Shown here one piece after another: positions 1,177 to 10,000 of a stretch of DNA of 64,000 bases. The position numbers were made by a program, and so were the translations under genes. Within the stretch, counting starts at the first letter, position 1. Every line of letters begins with the position of its first letter. The stretch is from the NCBI RefSeq assembly GCF_900143685.1, contig NZ_LT671675.1, positions 781,111 through 845,110 on the forward strand, read 5' to 3'. Below the pieces are notes generated by a model, which was not told where the DNA came from, did no database searches, and saw only the letters and a list, made by a program, of their open reading frames with translations. Source of the stretch: Parolsenella massiliensis. GTDB taxonomy: Bacteria > Actinomycetota > Coriobacteriia > Coriobacteriales > Atopobiaceae.

Positions 1177-2556
1177 ATGCCAGATTCCGCGCGCCGCCGT
1201 TCGCCGCGCTTCTCGAGCGAGGCGAACCCGTATAGCGCTTCGCGTCCCTCTACGGGTGGCAAGCGCTTCTCGGCGTCTGCGCCCGCGAACGGTGGCCGTG
1301 CCTCGAAGCCCGTTTCCTCCGCTCGCCATGCCGCGCGTCCCCGCCAGTCTGGCGCTGCGGCTCCTGCTCGCTCTGGGAGGGTGGCGACAGGTGGTGCCAC
1401 TCGCTCGCGCCAGGCCACGGCCGGCGGTGCCACTCGCTCGCGCCAGGCCACGGCCGGCATGCAGAGCTTGGCCACGCCCCGCTCTCGCTCGCAGCGCGAG
1501 GCCGCCCGTCGCGGTGGCCACACGAGGCGTGCACCCATCGTCGCAGGCGTCTTTGCCGCGGTCGTGGTCATTGCGGGCATCGTGTTTGCGGTTTCGCACT
1601 TTCTGCTGGCCAGGCCCGGCCAGGACACGCTTCCCAACCAGGGGACGCAGGTAGAGGTGGTCATCGACGACGGTTCGGGCGCCAACGCGGTTGCCGCGAA
1701 GCTCAAGGACGCCGGCGTCATCGCGAGCACGGACGAGTTCCTTTCGCAGGTGCAGAAGCAGAAGGCCGACTCCCAGATCAAGAGCGGCGCCTACGTGTTC
1801 ACGGTGGGGCAGGACCTCGACTCGATCATAAGCCAGCTCGTGAGCGGGCCAAACTCCACGACGGGCCGCCTCACCGTGCCTGAGGGCCTCACGGTGTCCC
1901 AGACCGCGCAGCTCGTCTCCGAGGCGCTCAGCGTCTCGAGCGACGACTTCACCGCCCAGGCGAAGGCCTCCAACTACGTGGCCGACTACCCCTTCCTGGC
2001 AGACGCCGCCAACGACTCGCTCGAGGGCTTCCTGTGTCCCAAGACCTATGACTTCTCCGGCCGCAGCGACGTCACGGCAGACGTGGTCATCCGCGCCATG
2101 CTCGACCAGTACCAGGCAGACGTGGCAACTCTGGACTTCGCTTCCGGCGAGGCGCTCATCGCCGACCGCTACGGCATCACGATGAGCGACTACGACGTCA
2201 TCAAGCTCGCCTCCATCGTCGAGCGCGAGGCCGTGACCGACGGGCAGCGCCCCAAGGTTGCCTCGGTGTTCCTGAACCGTCTCAAGGCGGGCATGGCGCT
2301 GCAGAGCGACGCCACGATGATGTACGTCACCGGCGGCGAGGTCACGGCAGACGACCTCAAGACCGAGAGTCCCTACAACACCTACCTCAACAACGGGCTT
2401 ACGCCCACGCCCATCTGCACCCCGTCCGTGGACTCCATCAAGGCGGTTCTTTCGCCTGACGACACGGACTACCTGTACTTCTACATCACCCAGACCGACG
2501 AGTGGTTCTCCTCGACCTACGACGAGCACCTCCAGGCCATTGAGGAGAACAAGTAG
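1177..2556 (+). CDS. mltG: Endolytic murein transglycosylase MltG (YceG-like)
   Basis: A membrane-anchored lytic transglycosylase that cleaves nascent glycan strands and so limits peptidoglycan chain length. About 459 aa from the ATG at 1177, chosen because GAGAGGGG lies just upstream; an in-frame ATG at 1144 has no such site. Residues 1-118 form a very basic, Ser/Ala/Arg-rich cytoplasmic tail that contains an exact 11-residue tandem repeat. One membrane helix spans about 121-144, and the YceG domain follows. The catalytic Glu is about residue 349, in the ASIVEREA motif. The long tail is unusual against the E. coli protein (~340 aa). The next gene starts directly after the stop. Confidence 0.95.
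   Translation: MPDSARRRSPRFSSEANPYSASRPSTGGKRFSASAPANGGRASKPVSSARHAARPRQSGAAAPARSGRVATGGATRSRQATAGGATRSRQATAGMQSLATPRSRSQREAARRGGHTRRAPIVAGVFAAVVVIAGIVFAVSHFLLARPGQDTLPNQGTQVEVVIDDGSGANAVAAKLKDAGVIASTDEFLSQVQKQKADSQIKSGAYVFTVGQDLDSIISQLVSGPNSTTGRLTVPEGLTVSQTAQLVSEALSVSSDDFTAQAKASNYVADYPFLADAANDSLEGFLCPKTYDFSGRSDVTADVVIRAMLDQYQADVATLDFASGEALIADRYGITMSDYDVIKLASIVEREAVTDGQRPKVASVFLNRLKAGMALQSDATMMYVTGGEVTADDLKTESPYNTYLNNGLTPTPICTPSVDSIKAVLSPDDTDYLYFYITQTDEWFSSTYDEHLQAIEENK
1393..1458 (+). repeat. Exact 33-bp tandem duplication inside mltG
   Basis: Two identical in-frame 33-bp units (1393-1425 and 1426-1458) encode GATRSRQATAG twice in the basic cytoplasmic tail of MltG. Perfect identity at the DNA level points to a recent slippage or recombination event, so copy number may vary between strains. 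Confidence 0.97.
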
Positions 2557-3042
2557 ATGAGCCTAGTCAGGCCCTGGCGCCGCGAGCGCGCCATCACCGA
2601 CGTTGACGTCGACGAGCTTGCCGCGAGCGGCGTGCGCTGTGTGCTGTTCGACCGCGACAACACCGTGGTTCCGCGCGACACCGGCGTGGCTCCCGAGTCC
2701 GTCATGGACTGGATCTGTCGCGTGCGCGAGGCGGGTATTGCCCTGTGCATGGTGTCGAACAACTTCCACTCGCAGCAGGTCGAGGCCAGTGCGGCTGAGC
2801 TTGGGTGCGCCGTGGTGCATCACGCCATGAAGCCGGCGCCGTTCGCCGTGCGGCGGGCGCTTGCGCTTGTGGGCGTGGACGCGAGCGAGGCCGTGCTCAT
2901 CGGCGACCAGGTGTTCACCGACGTCATGGCTGGCAACCTTGCGGGCGTGCGCACGATTCTCGTTGAGCCGCAGAGCACGAGCGACCTGTGGTACACGCAC
3001 ATCTTCCGCGTCTTCGAGCGGGCGATCGGCGCCCGCAGGTGA
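2557..3042 (+). CDS. yqeG: YqeG-family HAD phosphatase (class IIIA)
   Basis: 161 aa. The N-terminal half has the HAD nucleophile motif CVLFDRDNTVV (about residues 28-38). A later GDQVFTDVMAGN holds the acidic metal-binding motif. Related to phosphatidylglycerophosphate phosphatases and to YqeG of Bacillus, so a phosphatase on a phospholipid head group or phosphosugar is likely, but the substrate cannot be read from sequence. The ATG follows the mltG stop with no gap, and the stop overlaps the GTG of the next gene, so translation is probably coupled. Confidence 0.88.
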   Translation: MSLVRPWRRERAITDVDVDELAASGVRCVLFDRDNTVVPRDTGVAPESVMDWICRVREAGIALCMVSNNFHSQQVEASAAELGCAVVHHAMKPAPFAVRRALALVGVDASEAVLIGDQVFTDVMAGNLAGVRTILVEPQSTSDLWYTHIFRVFERAIGARR

Positions 3043-3500
3043 TTGCCGCCTGGGCCATCGCTGCCGTGCTCGTGGGCCTGTCCGTGTGGGCGGGCATCGT
3101 TGACGCGCGGAGCCGCAGGATTCCCAACGCGTGCTGCGTGCTTGTGGCACTTTGCGGCGTGGCGCTTCAGGCCGCAAGGGCGCAGAGCCGCGTGGCTCCC
3201 GTGCTTGGCGAGCCGCTCGCATGCGTGTGGCTCGCCGCGGCTGTGCTGGTTGCGGGCGCGTGCCTGGAGCTTGCGTATCGGCGGCTGAGCGGGCACTCCG
3301 GCCTTGGGATGGGAGACATCAAGTACGTTGCCGCCTGGGCCGTCTCGCTTGGCTGGCTCGTGGCGCCCGCGCTTGTTGTGGCGTGCCTTCTGGGCGCCGC
3401 GTGGGGCCTGGCGACCCGCCAGCGCACGTTTGCGTTCGGCCCGTGGCTCTCGCTGGCGTTTTGTCTTCAGATGCTGATGGCCCTTGCGGCTTCGAGTTAG
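3039..3500 (+). CDS. Minimal prepilin peptidase (A24, CpaA/TadV-like)
   Basis: 153 aa, polytopic membrane protein. Both A24 aspartates are visible: D22 in VDARSRRIPN and D93 in the GMGDIK motif. It lacks the N-terminal methylase domain and cysteines of full-length PilD, so it resembles CpaA/TadV-type enzymes that only cleave leader peptides. The GTG at 3039 overlaps the stop of yqeG (GTGA), which decides the start. No pilin, ATPase or secretin gene is nearby; its substrates (tight-adherence or competence pseudopilins) must be encoded elsewhere. Confidence 0.86.
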   Translation: MIAAWAIAAVLVGLSVWAGIVDARSRRIPNACCVLVALCGVALQAARAQSRVAPVLGEPLACVWLAAAVLVAGACLELAYRRLSGHSGLGMGDIKYVAAWAVSLGWLVAPALVVACLLGAAWGLATRQRTFAFGPWLSLAFCLQMLMALAASS

Positions 3501-3838
3501 GCTTCCTGCAAAAGTGGACCTAGGTTTGTGCGCTCGGCTTGCCAATTCTGTCATTCTGACGAGGCAGGTCTTCTCAGTTTTCGAACACTTTTGAGACTCT
3601 GCTCGGAAACTCATGGCTTTCTGCCCCCTCAGAGGAGTTCTGCAGGGCTCACATATCAGTTTCGAGCGAATCCATCGCACAAACCTTGCCTGGTATTTGC
3701 AAGATTGCCAATTTGAATGTCGCGCGGTCTTTCCCAGGTCGAGACGCGGAGGTGCCCTGCGCTAGAATCGAGGGAAGCCATGCACGCATTGCCGGCGCAG
3801 CATCACGGGGCGCCGGCATTTCTATGAGAGGAGGCCAG
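3501..3838. other. Low-GC gap upstream of aroK
   Basis: No convincing gene is seen. The first ~220 bp are clearly richer in A/T than the surrounding genes and have no good ribosome site or codon bias in any frame. The last ~75 bp look like a leader: a -10-like TAGAAT at 3763-3768, and a 7-bp hairpin (GCCGGCG at 3791-3797 with CGCCGGC at 3811-3817) just before the aroK ribosome site. It could be a dispersed intergenic element or the remains of a lost gene. Confidence 0.5.
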
Positions 3839-4390
3839 ATGGACGAGGCGCGCCGCGCTCGCAACCGCGCGCACCACGGCTGCGACCACGTGTTCTTCAT
3901 CGGCTTCCTGGGTGCAGGCAAGACGACGGTCGCCAGAAACCTGGGTAACATGTTCCACCGCTCGTTCGTCGATGTGGACCGCATGGTTGAGCGAGACCTC
4001 CACGCCAGCGTGGCGCGCATCTTCGAGACGCGCGGCGAGCAGGCCTTCCGCGTGGCCGAGACACGCTCGCTCGAGAGCCTCAAGCGTCGCAGGAGCCTGC
4101 TCGTGAGCTGCGGCGGGGGCATCATCGAGAGCGAGCGCAACGCGGGCCTCATGCACGAGATGGGCAGCGTCGTCTTCCTTGACGGCACGCTCGAGGACTC
4201 GCTTCGCCAGATCCGTCGTCCCGAGAAGCGCCCCGACCTGGGCGACCTCGACCACGCACGCGAGCTGTACGCGCACCGAAGGCCCCTGTACGAGGCCGCG
4301 TGCGACTATCGCGTGACCATCTCCGGAAAGACGTTCGAGCAGGTTGCCTACGACGTGGGCGAGCTGCTCTGGGAAAGGGGACTGCTATGA
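3839..4390 (+). CDS. aroK: Shikimate kinase
   Basis: 183 aa. Transfers phosphate from ATP to shikimate, step five of the chorismate pathway. The residues that matter look intact: P-loop GFLGAGKTT (22-30), the shikimate-contacting Asp pair in FVDVD (45/47), Arg71 in FRVAE, the GGG loop (92-94), the lid Arg131 in KRPDL and Arg147/148 in HRRPLYE. The start is set by GAGAGGAGG ending 5 bp before the ATG. The stop overlaps the ATG of the next gene (ATGA). The neighbouring AroB-like protein appears inactive, so the pathway context is odd. Confidence 0.93.
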   Translation: MDEARRARNRAHHGCDHVFFIGFLGAGKTTVARNLGNMFHRSFVDVDRMVERDLHASVARIFETRGEQAFRVAETRSLESLKRRRSLLVSCGGGIIESERNAGLMHEMGSVVFLDGTLEDSLRQIRRPEKRPDLGDLDHARELYAHRRPLYEAACDYRVTISGKTFEQVAYDVGELLWERGLL

Positions 4391-5691
4391 GTGACGAGAA
4401 TACCGAGGCCGCGCAGCAGCCGGCGCCTACGCCCGACGCGCCCGCCGAGGCTGCGGCGGCCGCGCCAGCCCCCGAGGCCGCGGTCAGCGAGCCCGACCCC
4501 GCCCCGGCGCCCGTCGTGCGCAGGCAGTCCGTCGTCATGCGCACGGGCTCGTGTGACATGCGCGTGGGCACGGGGGCACTCGACCAGCTTGGCAACGCCG
4601 CAAGAATCGCCGCGGGCAAGCCCAGTCGCGCGCTTCTCGTGAGCGCCGCAGACGTTGCCCCCGAGCTCACCGAGCGCGCCCGCCGTCTGCTTGTGGACAC
4701 GGGCTTTGCCGTGAGCCTCGCGAGCGTCCCGGCCGGCCGCGCCGCCCGCAGCATCGAGCACGTCACCGAACTGTATGCCACGCTCGCCGCCGAGCACGTC
4801 ACCGCCGACGATCCCATCGTTGTCATCGGCGACGCCGACGCCATCTCGCTCGCGATCTTCGCCGGCGCCACGTGGCACACGGGCTGCCCCGTCGTTGCCG
4901 TGGCCACGACGCTCGACGCCGTGACCGACGTCACGGTGACGCCGCGAGCCATTGACGCGCCCGCCGCGCCCGACATGCTCGTCGCCCGCGGAAACGCCCG
5001 CTTCATGCTCGCGGACCCGTCCGTCTTCGCATCCGGCGAGCTCTCGAATGGCGAGCTCATGGGCCGCGCCGTCATGGTGGCCGGCGCTGTTGCGGCGGGG
5101 GAGAACTGCTTCAGTGAGCTCGCGGTTCGCGCCGGCGGCGTCGTTGACGCCGCCGAGGACACGCTTGTGGCGGCCATCCTCGACATCACGAAGGCCCGCG
5201 CCCGCGTGGTTTCCTCGTCGGCCCTCGCCATGCGTCAGGGCATCCTGTACGGCCAGGCCATCGGCCGCGCCCTCGAGCGCGCCCTTGCGCAGCAGCAGGC
5301 TGACCCCAGTCGCTACCTCGTGGACGAGAGGCCCGGGAGCGCCCGCCTGCTCGCCGAGGGGCTGCGCATCGCGGCGCGCCTGGCCGCCGCCAAGCAGGCG
5401 CCCGACGACAAGCTCGTGGACTTCGTATTCACCCAGGACGGCCTGCTCGAGAAGTTCGGCCTCGCCGAGGTCGCCTGCGTCGTCGACCCCCAGACGCTGC
5501 TCGACTGCCTCAAGGCCGAGGAGCTTGCCCGCTCGAACCGCTTCATGCTCGCGCTGCCGCTTGGCTTTGGCCGCGTGCGCCTCACGTCCGTGCCCGACGA
5601 GCTGCTGCTCGAGCACCTCGGCGGCTGGTGCAAGAGCCGTCGCAAGCTCGCCCGCCGCCGAGCTCGCGAGGCGCAGGCCGAGGCAAACTAG
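4387..5691 (+). CDS. Degenerate 3-dehydroquinate-synthase-like protein (probable pseudoenzyme)
   Basis: 434 aa. Residues 1-43 are an Ala/Pro/Glu-rich extension. The rest has the size, order and secondary-structure feel of AroB and sits directly after aroK (ATGA overlap), where aroB is expected. Some family blocks are traceable: ATTLDAVTD (173-181) for PTTLLAQVD, and ITKARARVV for the KxxVV helix. The functional residues are missing. The NAD-binding GGG becomes GDA (149-151). The GHTFGHAIE motif becomes GQAIGRALE (289-297), losing both His. The LLHGEAVA motif becomes LLAEGLRIA, losing the third. Real AroB needs these for Zn and catalysis, so synthase activity is unlikely. No stop or frameshift is present, so the frame is maintained. 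The family assignment rests on pattern matching by eye. Confidence 0.72.
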   Translation: MSDENTEAAQQPAPTPDAPAEAAAAAPAPEAAVSEPDPAPAPVVRRQSVVMRTGSCDMRVGTGALDQLGNAARIAAGKPSRALLVSAADVAPELTERARRLLVDTGFAVSLASVPAGRAARSIEHVTELYATLAAEHVTADDPIVVIGDADAISLAIFAGATWHTGCPVVAVATTLDAVTDVTVTPRAIDAPAAPDMLVARGNARFMLADPSVFASGELSNGELMGRAVMVAGAVAAGENCFSELAVRAGGVVDAAEDTLVAAILDITKARARVVSSSALAMRQGILYGQAIGRALERALAQQQADPSRYLVDERPGSARLLAEGLRIAARLAAAKQAPDDKLVDFVFTQDGLLEKFGLAEVACVVDPQTLLDCLKAEELARSNRFMLALPLGFGRVRLTSVPDELLLEHLGGWCKSRRKLARRRAREAQAEAN

Positions 5692-5764: not shown

Positions 5765-6889
5765 ATGGCAGACGAGAAGGCCTGCGCCGCGCGCATCGCC
5801 AAGCTCCGCAACATCATGGAGGAGCGCGGCTATGACGCCGTGATCCTTCGCAACAACCCCGACCTGCGCTGGCTTACGGGCTGCGAGCGCACGTTCGACG
5901 ACGAGGTGGCCCACACGGTGGTCATCACGCCGACGCGCCAGCTGCTCCACACCGACTCTCGCTACTACAACACCTTCTGCGAGCGTCTGGGCGACAACAC
6001 CGCCTGGGAGCTCGACGAGACCATCATGGGCGCCCACGAGTGGGCCGCAGATCGCATCCGCGAGGCCCATGCCCGCGTCGTGGCCGTCGAGGACACGTGC
6101 ACCCTCGAGTTCTTCGACGCCCTGCAGGCGGCGCTTGCCGAGCGCTCCGTTGCGTGCCTGCTGCCGCGCCTGCATGGCGACCTCGTGAAGCTGCGCGCCG
6201 TGAAGGATGCCGAGGAGGTCGAGCTCATGCGCGCCGCCCAGAAGGTGACCGACGAGGCGTTCCGCCACATCTGCGGCTACATCAAGCCGGGCCTCACCGA
6301 GCAGCAGATTCGCGCCGAGCTCGAGAACTACATGCTCTCCCACGGCGCCGATGGCCTGTCCTTTGGCACAATCATCGCGAGTGGCCCCAATGGCGCCAAC
6401 CCGCACGCCCAGCCCGGTCCCCGCGTGGTCGAGAAGGGCGACATGATCGTCATGGATTACGGCGCCACCGTGGCCGACTATCACGCCGACATGACGCGCA
6501 CCGTCTGCGTGGGCGAGCCTACCGAGGAGCAGCGCCACGTCTATGACGTCGTGCGCCAGGCCCACGAGGAGTGCGCCGCCATGGCCCGCGCCGGCGTCAT
6601 TGGCAAGGACGTCTTCGACCACTCCGTGAAGGTCATCACAGACGCCGGCTACGGCGACTACTACAAGCACGGCCTGGGCCATGGCGTGGGCGTCGAGATC
6701 CACGAGGAGCCGAACTTCAACCGTCGCAACATGGAGCCCATTCCCGCAGGGGCTGTCATCACGATCGAGCCGGGCATCTACCTTCCGGGCAAGTTCGGCA
6801 TCCGCCTCGAGGACTTTGGCCTCGTCACTGAGGACGGATATGAGCCGTTTACCGAATCGCCGCACGAGCTCACGGTCGTTCCGTGCTAG
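5765..6889 (+). CDS. pepP: Xaa-Pro aminopeptidase (M24 family)
   Basis: 374 aa, cytoplasmic dimetal peptidase that releases N-terminal residues before proline. It has an N-terminal creatinase-like domain (~1-130) and a C-terminal pita-bread domain. All five metal ligands are visible: D231 in VMDYG, D242 in HADMTRT, H306 in GLGHGVG, E335 in TIEPG and E349 in RLEDFG. The ATG at 5765 follows GGAAAGGAAG. In many relatives efp comes next; here a PTS operon lies between the two. Confidence 0.93.
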   Translation: MADEKACAARIAKLRNIMEERGYDAVILRNNPDLRWLTGCERTFDDEVAHTVVITPTRQLLHTDSRYYNTFCERLGDNTAWELDETIMGAHEWAADRIREAHARVVAVEDTCTLEFFDALQAALAERSVACLLPRLHGDLVKLRAVKDAEEVELMRAAQKVTDEAFRHICGYIKPGLTEQQIRAELENYMLSHGADGLSFGTIIASGPNGANPHAQPGPRVVEKGDMIVMDYGATVADYHADMTRTVCVGEPTEEQRHVYDVVRQAHEECAAMARAGVIGKDVFDHSVKVITDAGYGDYYKHGLGHGVGVEIHEEPNFNRRNMEPIPAGAVITIEPGIYLPGKFGIRLEDFGLVTEDGYEPFTESPHELTVVPC

Positions 6890-7150: not shown

Positions 7151-7237
7151 TTGATAGCTTAATCTCCACATCACTAAGTCTGTGCCCTATTATTCAGACG
7201 TTCCGCATTGGACCCCATAAGTGCATGGGAGGTAGGA

Positions 7238-8227
7238 ATGGTAGGAATTGTCCTAGCAAGCCATGGCGAGCTTGCGGCGGGCGTTCGGCAGACGGGCTCC
7301 ATGGTCTTCGGTGACCAGGAGAACGTTGCCGTCGTGAGCCTCAAGCCCTCCATGGGCCCTGACGAGTTCAGGGCCAACCTCGAGGAGGCCGTTGGCACCC
7401 TCGAGGACCAGGAACAGGTCCTGTTCCTGGTGGACCTTTGGGGAGGCACGCCGTTCAATCAGACGAGCGCGCTGGTAAAGGGCCACGACACGTGGGCCAT
7501 CGTGACGGGTCTCAACCTGCCGATGCTCATCGAGGCGTACTCGGCCCGCATGGACGCCACTAAGACGGCCCACCAGATCGCCGCGCACCTCACGGCCGAG
7601 GCTCGCAAGGGCGTGCGCGTCCTTCCCGAGTCGCTCGAGCCCAAGGCGCCTGCGACGAATGCTGCGGTCGCCAAGGCCGGCGCCATCGCCCCGGGCACGG
7701 TGCTCGGCAACGGCAAGATCGACATCGCGGCCGTGCGCATCGACACGCGTCTGCTCCACGGTCAGGTGGCTACCGCCTGGACCAAGCAGATCGCGCCGAA
7801 CCGCATCATCGTGGTCTCCGACGGCGTCGCCCACGACGAGCTGCGCAAGACCATGATCGAGCAGGCCGCGCCTCCAGGAGTTCCGGCCAACGTCGTGCCC
7901 ATCTCCAAGATGGTCGAGGTCGCCAAGGACCCGCGCTTCGGCGCCACCAAGGCGTTCCTGCTGTTCGAGACCCCGCAGGACCTTCTCAAGTGCATCGAGG
8001 GCGGCGTTGACATCAAGAACGCCAACATCGGCTCCATGGCGCACTCCGTCGGCAAGGTCGTCGTCACGAACGCCATCGCCATGGGCGAGGACGACGTCAA
8101 GACTATCGAGAAGCTCAAGGAGCTCGGCGTCAAGTTCGAGGCTCGCAAGGTTCCGTCCGACGCGTCCGAGAACATCGACGAGATGCTCAAGAAGGCCAAG
8201 ACAGACTTGGCCGCCCAGGCTAAGTAA
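7238..8227 (+). CDS. manX: PTS mannose/sorbose-family EIIAB component
   Basis: 329 aa, cytoplasmic. The EIIA domain (~1-135) begins VGIVLASHGELAAG with the phosphorylated His9. A linker leads to an EIIB domain (~160-325) with the phosphorylated His174 in RIDTRLLHGQV. It relays phosphate from HPr to the incoming sugar. The ATG at 7238 is preferred over a TTG at 7208 because GGGAGGTAGGA sits just upstream of it. It heads an operon with IIC, IID and DUF956. The sugar cannot be told from sequence; mannose, glucose and glucosamine are usual for the family. Confidence 0.95.
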   Translation: MVGIVLASHGELAAGVRQTGSMVFGDQENVAVVSLKPSMGPDEFRANLEEAVGTLEDQEQVLFLVDLWGGTPFNQTSALVKGHDTWAIVTGLNLPMLIEAYSARMDATKTAHQIAAHLTAEARKGVRVLPESLEPKAPATNAAVAKAGAIAPGTVLGNGKIDIAAVRIDTRLLHGQVATAWTKQIAPNRIIVVSDGVAHDELRKTMIEQAAPPGVPANVVPISKMVEVAKDPRFGATKAFLLFETPQDLLKCIEGGVDIKNANIGSMAHSVGKVVVTNAIAMGEDDVKTIEKLKELGVKFEARKVPSDASENIDEMLKKAKTDLAAQAK

Positions 8228-8242
8228 GGGAGGGTCTGACAC

Positions 8243-9061
8243 ATGTCTCCAATCACGATTATCCTGATCGTCATCGTTGCCTTCCTTGCTGGTATGGAGG
8301 GCATCCTCGATGAGTTCGAGTTCCACCAGCCCCTGGTGGCGTGCACGCTCATCGGCCTTGTCAGCGGCCACCTGCAGGAGGGCATCCTCCTTGGCGGTCA
8401 GCTCCAGATGATTGCCCTCGGCTGGGCGAACATCGGCGCCGCCGTGGCGCCTGACGCCGCGCTTGCCTCCGTCGCCTCGGCCATCATCATGGTCCTGGCC
8501 CTCAACGGCGGCAACGCTGATGCGAGCAACGCCATCACCACCTCCGTGGCCCTGGCCATCCCGCTGTCCGTCGCCGGCCTCTTCCTCACGATGATCTGCC
8601 GTACGCTCGCCACGGGCATCGTCCACGCCATGGACGCCTGCGCCGAGAAGGGCGACTTCAAGGGCATTGAGGCCTGGCAGATCGTCGCCATCTGCATGCA
8701 GGGCGTTCGTATTGCCATTCCGGCCGCGCTGCTCTGCGTCATCCCTGCTGAGGCCGTCACGAACGCGCTCAACGCTATGCCCGCATGGCTCTCCGGCGGC
8801 ATGGCCGTCGGCGGCGGCATGGTCGCTGCCGTGGGCTACGCCATGGTCATCAACATGATGGCCACCAAGGAGACCTGGCCGTTCTTCATCCTCGGCTTCG
8901 TCCTCGCTGCCATCTCCCAGCTCACCCTCATCGCCCTTGGTCTCATCGGCATCTCGCTCGCCCTCATCTACCTTGGCCTCAAGGACATGGCCAAGCAGGG
9001 TGGCGGCAACGGCGGCGGCTCCGGCGACCCGCTGGGCGACATCCTGAACGACTACGAGTAG
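8243..9061 (+). CDS. manY: PTS mannose/sorbose-family EIIC component
   Basis: 272 aa integral membrane protein, one half of the transport channel for the phosphorylated sugar. Hydrophobic segments run through most of the protein, with the family stretch EGILLGGQLQMIALGWANIG near residue 50-70 and a glycine-rich polar tail. The gene starts 15 bp after manX, behind GGGAGG, and is followed after 18 bp by manZ. Confidence 0.94.
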   Translation: MSPITIILIVIVAFLAGMEGILDEFEFHQPLVACTLIGLVSGHLQEGILLGGQLQMIALGWANIGAAVAPDAALASVASAIIMVLALNGGNADASNAITTSVALAIPLSVAGLFLTMICRTLATGIVHAMDACAEKGDFKGIEAWQIVAICMQGVRIAIPAALLCVIPAEAVTNALNAMPAWLSGGMAVGGGMVAAVGYAMVINMMATKETWPFFILGFVLAAISQLTLIALGLIGISLALIYLGLKDMAKQGGGNGGGSGDPLGDILNDYE

Positions 9062-9079
9062 GAAGGGAGAGTGACTACC

Positions 9080-10000
9080 ATGGCAGAGAACAAGATCGAG
9101 CTTTCCGCTGCTGACCGCAAGAAGGTTTGGTGGCGCCACCAGTTCCTCCAGGGCTCCTGGAACTACGAGCGCATGCAGAACGGTGGCTGGTGCTACTCCA
9201 TGATCCCCGCGATCAAGAAGCTGTACCCCGCCAAGGAGGACCAGGTCGCTGCCCTTAAGCGTCACCTCGAGTTTTACAACACGCACCCCTACGTCTCCAG
9301 CCCGGTCATCGGCGTCACGCTCGCCCTCGAGGAGGAGCGCGCCAACGGTGCCGCCGTGGACGACGCCGCCATCCAGGGCGTCAAGGTGGGCATGATGGGC
9401 CCGCTGGCCGGCGTTGGCGACCCGGTGTTCTGGTTCACCGTGCGCCCGATCCTCGGTGCCCTCGGCGCGTCGCTGGCGCTCGGCGGCTCCATCGTGGGCC
9501 CCATTCTCTTCTTCGTCGTGTGGAACATCATCCGCATGGCCTTCGAGTGGTACACGCAGGAGTTTGGCTACAAGGTGGGCTCCTCCATCGCCAAGGACCT
9601 CTCCGGTGGCCTCATGGGCAAGGTCACCGAGGGCGCTTCCATCCTCGGCATGTTCATCATCGGCGCGCTCGTCCAGCGCTGGGTGTCCATCTCCTTCACG
9701 CCGATCGTCTCCCAGATCCCGCAGTCTGAGGGCGCCTATATCGACTGGAGCTCGCTGCCCAGCGGTTCCGACGGCATCAAGGAGGCCCTGACCCAGTACA
9801 ACTCCATCGGCGCAACTGCCCTGGACGCCACGAAGGTCACGACGCTGCAGCAGAACCTCGACCAGCTCATCCCCGGCCTTGCCGCCGTGCTGCTGACGCT
9901 TCTGTGCTGCAAGCTCCTCAAGAAGAAGGTCAGCCCGATCGTCATCATCCTGGCCCTCTTCGCCGTGGGCATCATCGGACGCCTCCTCGGCTTCATGTAG
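9080..10000 (+). CDS. manZ: PTS mannose/sorbose-family EIID component
   Basis: 306 aa membrane protein that pairs with EIIC. The N-terminal cytoplasmic part carries the family pattern WNYERMQNGGWCYSMIPAI; the membrane helices lie mainly in the C-terminal part. The ATG at 9080 is chosen over a GTG at 9071, since GGAAGGGAGA directly abuts the GTG but is well spaced from the ATG. A hairpin 50 bp downstream separates it from manO. Confidence 0.94.
   Translation: MAENKIELSAADRKKVWWRHQFLQGSWNYERMQNGGWCYSMIPAIKKLYPAKEDQVAALKRHLEFYNTHPYVSSPVIGVTLALEEERANGAAVDDAAIQGVKVGMMGPLAGVGDPVFWFTVRPILGALGASLALGGSIVGPILFFVVWNIIRMAFEWYTQEFGYKVGSSIAKDLSGGLMGKVTEGASILGMFIIGALVQRWVSISFTPIVSQIPQSEGAYIDWSSLPSGSDGIKEALTQYNSIGATALDATKVTTLQQNLDQLIPGLAAVLLTLLCCKLLKKKVSPIVIILALFAVGIIGRLLGFM

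Follow-up and report, generated by a model that had tools for sequence, protein, structure and literature searches.

An AroB homologue without catalytic residues, conserved beside a diverged shikimate kinase in two families of Coriobacteriia

The window analyzed here is a stretch of 64,000 nucleotides from Parolsenella massiliensis, corresponding to bases 781111-845110 of a 2,009,306-base single contig. One gene slot of the window holds a shikimate-kinase-like gene, a homologue of the 3-dehydroquinate (DHQ) synthase gene aroB, whose reading frame is open across 434 codons, and a peptidase gene. We refer to the AroB homologue as dead AroB. The features of the slot are the following.

3839..4390 (+): slot shikimate-kinase-like protein, 183 aa, PF01202 match of 121.9 bits; second shikimate kinase of the genome
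4387..4390 (+): ATGA overlap of the kinase stop and the dead AroB start, suggesting translational coupling
4387..5691 (+): dead AroB, putative pseudoenzyme with a predicted DHQ synthase fold, 434 aa, assigned from its PF01761 match, AlphaFold model, PDB matches and lost catalytic residues
4387..4515 (+): N-terminal extension, residues 1-43, Ala/Pro/Glu-rich and of low confidence (pLDDT about 45-73)
4519..4569 (+): N-terminal beta hairpin, residues 45-61, candidate kinase-facing surface with conserved R46, Q47, S55, D57, R59, and G61
4828..4836 (+): GDA, residues 148-150, aligned where the NAD-binding GGG is expected
5251..5277 (+): GQAIGRALE, residues 289-297, in place of G-H-T-x-G-H-A-x-E, with the zinc ligand H271 and also H275 gone
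5765..6889 (+): M24 metallopeptidase (Xaa-Pro peptidase type), PF00557 match of 239.3 bits; conserved slot neighbour

The dead AroB protein matches PF01761 with 32.7 bits, above the gathering cut-off of 24.2, and thus falls inside the DHQ synthase superfamily, as the initial annotation had proposed. Its score against the AroB equivalog model TIGR01357 is 54.7 bits, below the cut-off of 305. The AlphaFold model, for which 66 relatives were used as input, has a mean pLDDT of 92.3 and a pTM of 0.88 and is predicted to adopt the full two-domain DHQ synthase fold. The top Foldseek match among solved structures is a DHQ synthase (PDB ID 3qbe, E 7.5e-20), and the VIA-align superposition with PDB ID 5eks covers 352 residues at 2.6 Å with a Z score of 39.5. 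DHQ synthases in general reach Z scores of 31 to 39.5, compared to about 26 for the iron-type alcohol and glycerol dehydrogenases. The N-terminal extension differs in length among species and is missing in some relatives. The six hairpin positions named above are conserved across 135 slot proteins.

The altered motifs GQAIGRALE, LLAEGL (at about residues 321-326), and GDA, which had been pointed out from the sequence, are present as described. To place them, we aligned 94 proteins, comprising 36 canonical AroBs and 58 slot proteins (46 from Atopobiaceae and 12 from a second family of the order), using residue numbers and roles that we take to be those of the A. nidulans enzyme. E81, K84, G115, D119, R130, K152, K161, N162, E194, K197, K250, R264, N268, H271, H275, H287, and K356 are retained in all 36 canonical AroBs and nearly all gone from the 58 slot proteins, the exceptions being R264, which 54 of them retain, and K250, which is Arg in 57. 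The zinc ligands Glu194, His271, and His287 are all three absent from the window protein and gone from most or all of the slot proteins, with E194 aligned as Glu in 3/58. The NAD-site residues (GGG-V, Glu81, Lys84, and Asp119) are likewise lacking; G115, V116, and D119 are not retained in the slot family, D119 being replaced by Ser in 55/58. Among the substrate residues Arg130, Lys152, Asn162, Lys197, Lys250, Arg264, Asn268, His275, and Lys356, the window protein keeps only Arg264 and has Arg for Lys250. Zinc ligands at shifted positions were also looked for, and the alignment of the slot proteins showed no conserved set of His or Cys residues fit for a relocated metal site.

The slot family has a conservation pattern of its own. 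R46, D142, S154, W163, C164, R271, R283, R327, R331, D351, P391, and R398 are near-invariant, and five of these (W163, S154, R271, D142, and R398) differ from canonical AroB, while many former active-site columns vary among the slot proteins. The same catalytic residues are lost in independent assemblies. As read from the alignment, the loss is a shared and conserved family trait and not due to chance, sequencing error, or a single decayed copy.

The slot kinase retains the P-loop, DxD, FRxxE, GGG, the LID Arg, and the RxPLY Arg. The P-loop, D34, R58, GGG, R117, and R136, with D34, R58, R117, and R136 presumably catalytic, are kept in 56/56 slot kinases, all of which also carry the clade-specific replacements RPD for RPL in the LID and D..S..Q for E..A..R. 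The kinase had been described as an apparently fully functional AroK. The retained catalytic residues agree with this description, but the protein is not simply the pathway AroK: by its sequence and gene context it is a second, diverged shikimate kinase paralogue which need not be the pathway enzyme, considering the altered LID, the second shikimate kinase in the aro operon, and the retention of the slot kinase where AroE and AroC are gone. The kinase and dead AroB genes overlap by exactly 4 nucleotides in all 29 loci of the family with a readable kinase and, among the matches listed, in 77 of 78 readable named loci, suggesting that translation of dead AroB is coupled to that of the kinase.

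A canonical AroB scoring above the TIGR01357 cut-off lies at about 864.4-865.6 kb, approximately 19 kb past the window. It belongs to an operon whose open reading frames read as DAHP synthase, TyrA, AroB, AroA, AroC, chorismate mutase-prephenate dehydratase (PheA), an AroE-AroK fusion, and an AroQ-like protein, so that the second aroB is found together with aroA, aroC, and aroE in one place. The P. massiliensis genome thus has two shikimate kinases, the window AroK and the AroE-AroK fusion. The initial annotation had considered that the organism makes dehydroquinate in another way or not at all; with a canonical AroB in a complete operon, dehydroquinate synthesis is not missing, and we rejected an absent or bypassed shikimate pathway. 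Pathway annotation is likely to be misled by such a slot, taking the gene in the aroB position for AroB when the real AroB is encoded elsewhere. The pathway shikimate kinase of P. massiliensis is encoded, fused to AroE, on locus L006 from 3469 to about 4750 (-), and the AroQ reading frame of the same locus (2377-3336) has an additional N-terminal part resembling a PTS EIIB domain.

The window protein has matches in 121/121 genomes of its own family, with two exceptions on closer reading: G047 has a canonical AroB only, having lost both slot kinase and dead AroB while retaining the aro operon, and G033 shows only weak matches and no pathway. Named loci from Olsenella, Thermophilibacter, Lancefieldella, Atopobium, Parafannyhessea, and Tractidigestivibacter place this family as Atopobiaceae, and a scan of named genomes using the kinase returned, among the matches listed, Atopobiaceae-type loci only. 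The same two-AroB arrangement occurs in the second family of the order, which we take to be Coriobacteriaceae. The two families consist of gut and mouth bacteria; nearly all of their sampled genomes carry dead AroB, and nearly all relatives carry a canonical AroB. In a third large family, which is probably Eggerthellaceae, most genomes have just one AroB, a canonical one located in the slot. A plasmid search gave no match.

The AroB tree unites the dead proteins of both families in one clade (100/100) with a long stem, separate from the slot AroBs of other families and from the operon AroBs. The slot kinases of both families also cluster together in the kinase tree, along with one from a further family, genome G299 (100/97). 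Long branches leave the exact attachment uncertain in both trees. In sister families the slot AroB has kept its catalytic residues, and the common position of the genes speaks for an origin from an ancestral aroK-aroB pair. The analysis shows that this ancestral Coriobacteriia pair remained in its old slot while a separate, complete aro operon, with an AroB and an AroE-K fusion of its own, serves the shikimate pathway in Atopobiaceae and the second family. The slot AroB there has lost its zinc, NAD, and catalytic residues, most simply in one event before the two families split, but has retained the DHQ synthase fold.

The ratio of dN/dS for dead AroB across relatives is 0.06-0.4 for close pairs (Nei-Gojobori, dozens of pairs). 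For the window compared with its sister species, the value is 0.18, against about 0.15 (0.116/0.774) for canonical AroB and 0.044 for the slot kinase, so that dead AroB evolves faster than the kinase in this genus. Dead AroB is under purifying selection and not decaying. It is both selected and retained after the loss of catalysis, as expected for a conserved pseudoenzyme, and the pseudoenzyme proposed from the sequence has stood up as an AroB homologue whose catalytic residues are gone. We regard it as almost certain that dead AroB is a pseudoenzyme under selection.

Some genomes have lost the pathway or one member of the pair, which provides natural experiments on their dependence. Genome G264 of the second family, a complete genome on one contig, is without AroE, AroC, the canonical AroB, and a second shikimate kinase. 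Its slot pair is intact and located between mltG/HAD phosphatase genes and the M24 peptidase-efp-nusB genes. The pair outlives the pathway in this one genome, which speaks against chorismate synthesis as the task of the pair and suggests a role apart from aromatic biosynthesis. G307 was discounted as a second pathway-free keeper of the pair, as a piece of AroE-K is in frame through unreadable sequence; the missing aroB and aroC are probably due to an assembly gap. G016 was likewise discounted as a genome with only the slot kinase, because the contig with its aro operon breaks off at 6,700 bases and both kinases are present in two species of the genus.

Kinase and dead AroB can also be found apart. 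In G299 (L209 245-817, -), a kinase of the diverged type, with RPD in the LID, directly precedes the M24 peptidase, and no AroB of any kind was found between the two. Conversely, genus g19 (G019, G045, G060, and G072, with the same slot in G088) has an intact dead AroB without a slot kinase, which was cleanly lost between a prepilin-peptidase-like reading frame and dead AroB (L230-L234). Neither protein strictly needs the other. Dead AroB outlives the kinase here, an argument for a task beyond serving the kinase, and we rejected a strict kinase regulator. The regulator of AroK that had been suggested initially is possible but cannot be the sole role everywhere.

The g19 proteins also indicate which surface might face the kinase. 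Seven of 37 strongly conserved dead AroB positions are changed in this genus, and five of the seven (55, 57, 59, 61, and 398) belong to the N-terminal hairpin or to a C-terminal strand, the four hairpin positions being lost in five proteins; for this clustering the Fisher p value is 0.005, in a test chosen after seeing the data and for a single kinase-loss event. The arginines of the old cleft are kept. Within g19, dN/dS is 0.18-0.7, with the highest values for comparisons with the distant G045 protein, so that dead AroB is less constrained there. Based on this one event, the N-terminal hairpin is a candidate for the kinase-facing surface.

Genus g47 of the third family shows a different content of the slot. 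The locus L210 (G184, 3467-5162, -) holds an AroC-like reading frame whose GESHG motif carries an Asn, together with a shikimate-kinase-like reading frame with GEG for GGG, and there is no aroB in the slot; the aro operon is located elsewhere. Ten g47 genomes have two chorismate synthase matches each. Dead copies of slot genes may therefore have been retained in a second lineage as well.

The best explanation overall, to which we give a little under an even chance, is a neofunctionalized pseudoenzyme in which the slot AroB has become a non-catalytic subunit associated with the slot kinase and the old cleft binds an anion. The 4-nucleotide overlap would allow dead AroB to be made in step with the kinase, and the two proteins would normally associate. 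The old active-site cleft, with R271 (old K250), R283 (R264), R327, and R331, might bind an anionic metabolite. Occupancy of the cleft would then modulate either the diverged kinase, which may act on a substrate other than shikimate, or some other target. The parts of this reading differ in strength, and we infer the ligand, the kinase complex, and the regulatory effect. Whether dead AroB acts as a partner to the slot kinase in the majority of species is an evenly balanced question, and an anion-binding regulatory subunit is plausible, if clearly less than even. Because one genus is without the kinase and one genome without the pathway, ligand binding is probably the core function. The most far-reaching version, a metabolite-sensing kinase-pseudoenzyme pair of Atopobiaceae and Coriobacteriaceae in which anion sensing by dead AroB controls a shikimate-kinase-like enzyme that has acquired a new substrate and has nothing to do with chorismate synthesis, seems rather doubtful to us.

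Two other functions are each unlikely, to a similar degree. Dead AroB could be an enzyme that catalyzes a new reaction without zinc or NAD and accommodates a different anionic substrate in the old cleft. The intact fold of the predicted model and the arginines together with D142/D351, conserved in all slot proteins including those of the kinase-less genus, would suit such an enzyme, but no conserved residue set resembles a new catalytic centre, and the variability of many former active-site columns suits binding more than catalysis. Dead AroB could also serve the slot kinase simply as a scaffold or chaperone and bind no ligand. The gene overlap, the joint loss of both slot genes in G047, and the loss of the hairpin positions where the kinase is gone are in line with a scaffold, whereas dead AroB alone in one genus and a kinase of the same type alone in G299 are not.

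A slowly decaying relic, redundant since the second operon and held in frame by its translation with the kinase, is very improbable. Its ancestral task is indeed covered by canonical AroB, and dead AroB is gone in G047 and absent beside the kinase in G299, and evolves faster than the kinase. A relic would, however, hardly show such low dN/dS values in dozens of pairs, family-specific invariants unlike those of canonical AroB, and retention in nearly all genomes of two families, nor would it stay intact after both kinase loss and pathway loss. The possibility that the protein is still a working AroB whose ligands have shifted, or an artefact of sequencing or frame, can practically be dismissed despite the sequence similarity to AroB, as the zinc and catalytic columns are lost over 58 proteins with no substitute His/Cys set, the genome encodes a canonical AroB elsewhere, and independent assemblies show equal loss.

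The neofunctionalized pseudoenzyme can be compared with known systems. With 3-dehydroquinate synthase (TIGR01357), it shares the whole-length fold, a shikimate kinase neighbour, and part of the sequence, but it coexists with a canonical AroB and lacks the zinc ligands, the NAD site, and almost all substrate residues. The bifunctional AroK-AroB proteins (NF010627, NF010556) also couple shikimate kinase and AroB modules in expression, whereas the slot pair consists of two proteins with a 4-nucleotide gene overlap and a dead AroB, scoring 49.1 bits against a cut-off of 565. The sugar phosphate cyclases 2-deoxy-scyllo-inosose synthase, ValA, and desmethyl-4-deoxygadusol synthase have the fold in common (Z 31.9-35.3); the solved examples among the matches bind Zn or Co and NAD, unlike the slot protein, which is without such residues. 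Dead paralogues beside an active enzyme are known, with catalytic residues lost, the fold kept, and purifying selection acting, and the slot AroB is alike. A literature search on residue roles, lineage, and AroB pseudoenzymes, limited to open-licence papers, gave nothing useful and no bacterial AroB pseudoenzyme. As a bacterial pseudoenzyme of the DHQ synthase family that is widely retained, dead AroB seems not to have been described before. If the role of the pair lies outside aromatic biosynthesis, it would be a defined and testable case of a biosynthetic pair recruited to a new task after another gene set took over its job.

In related slots, the M24 metallopeptidase gene comes after either dead AroB or the slot kinase; it is probably not part of the dead AroB function. 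In the window, mannose-type PTS genes (7208-10000) lie between the M24 peptidase gene and efp, which are neighbours in G264 (L113), and they are probably an insertion in the lineage of the window.
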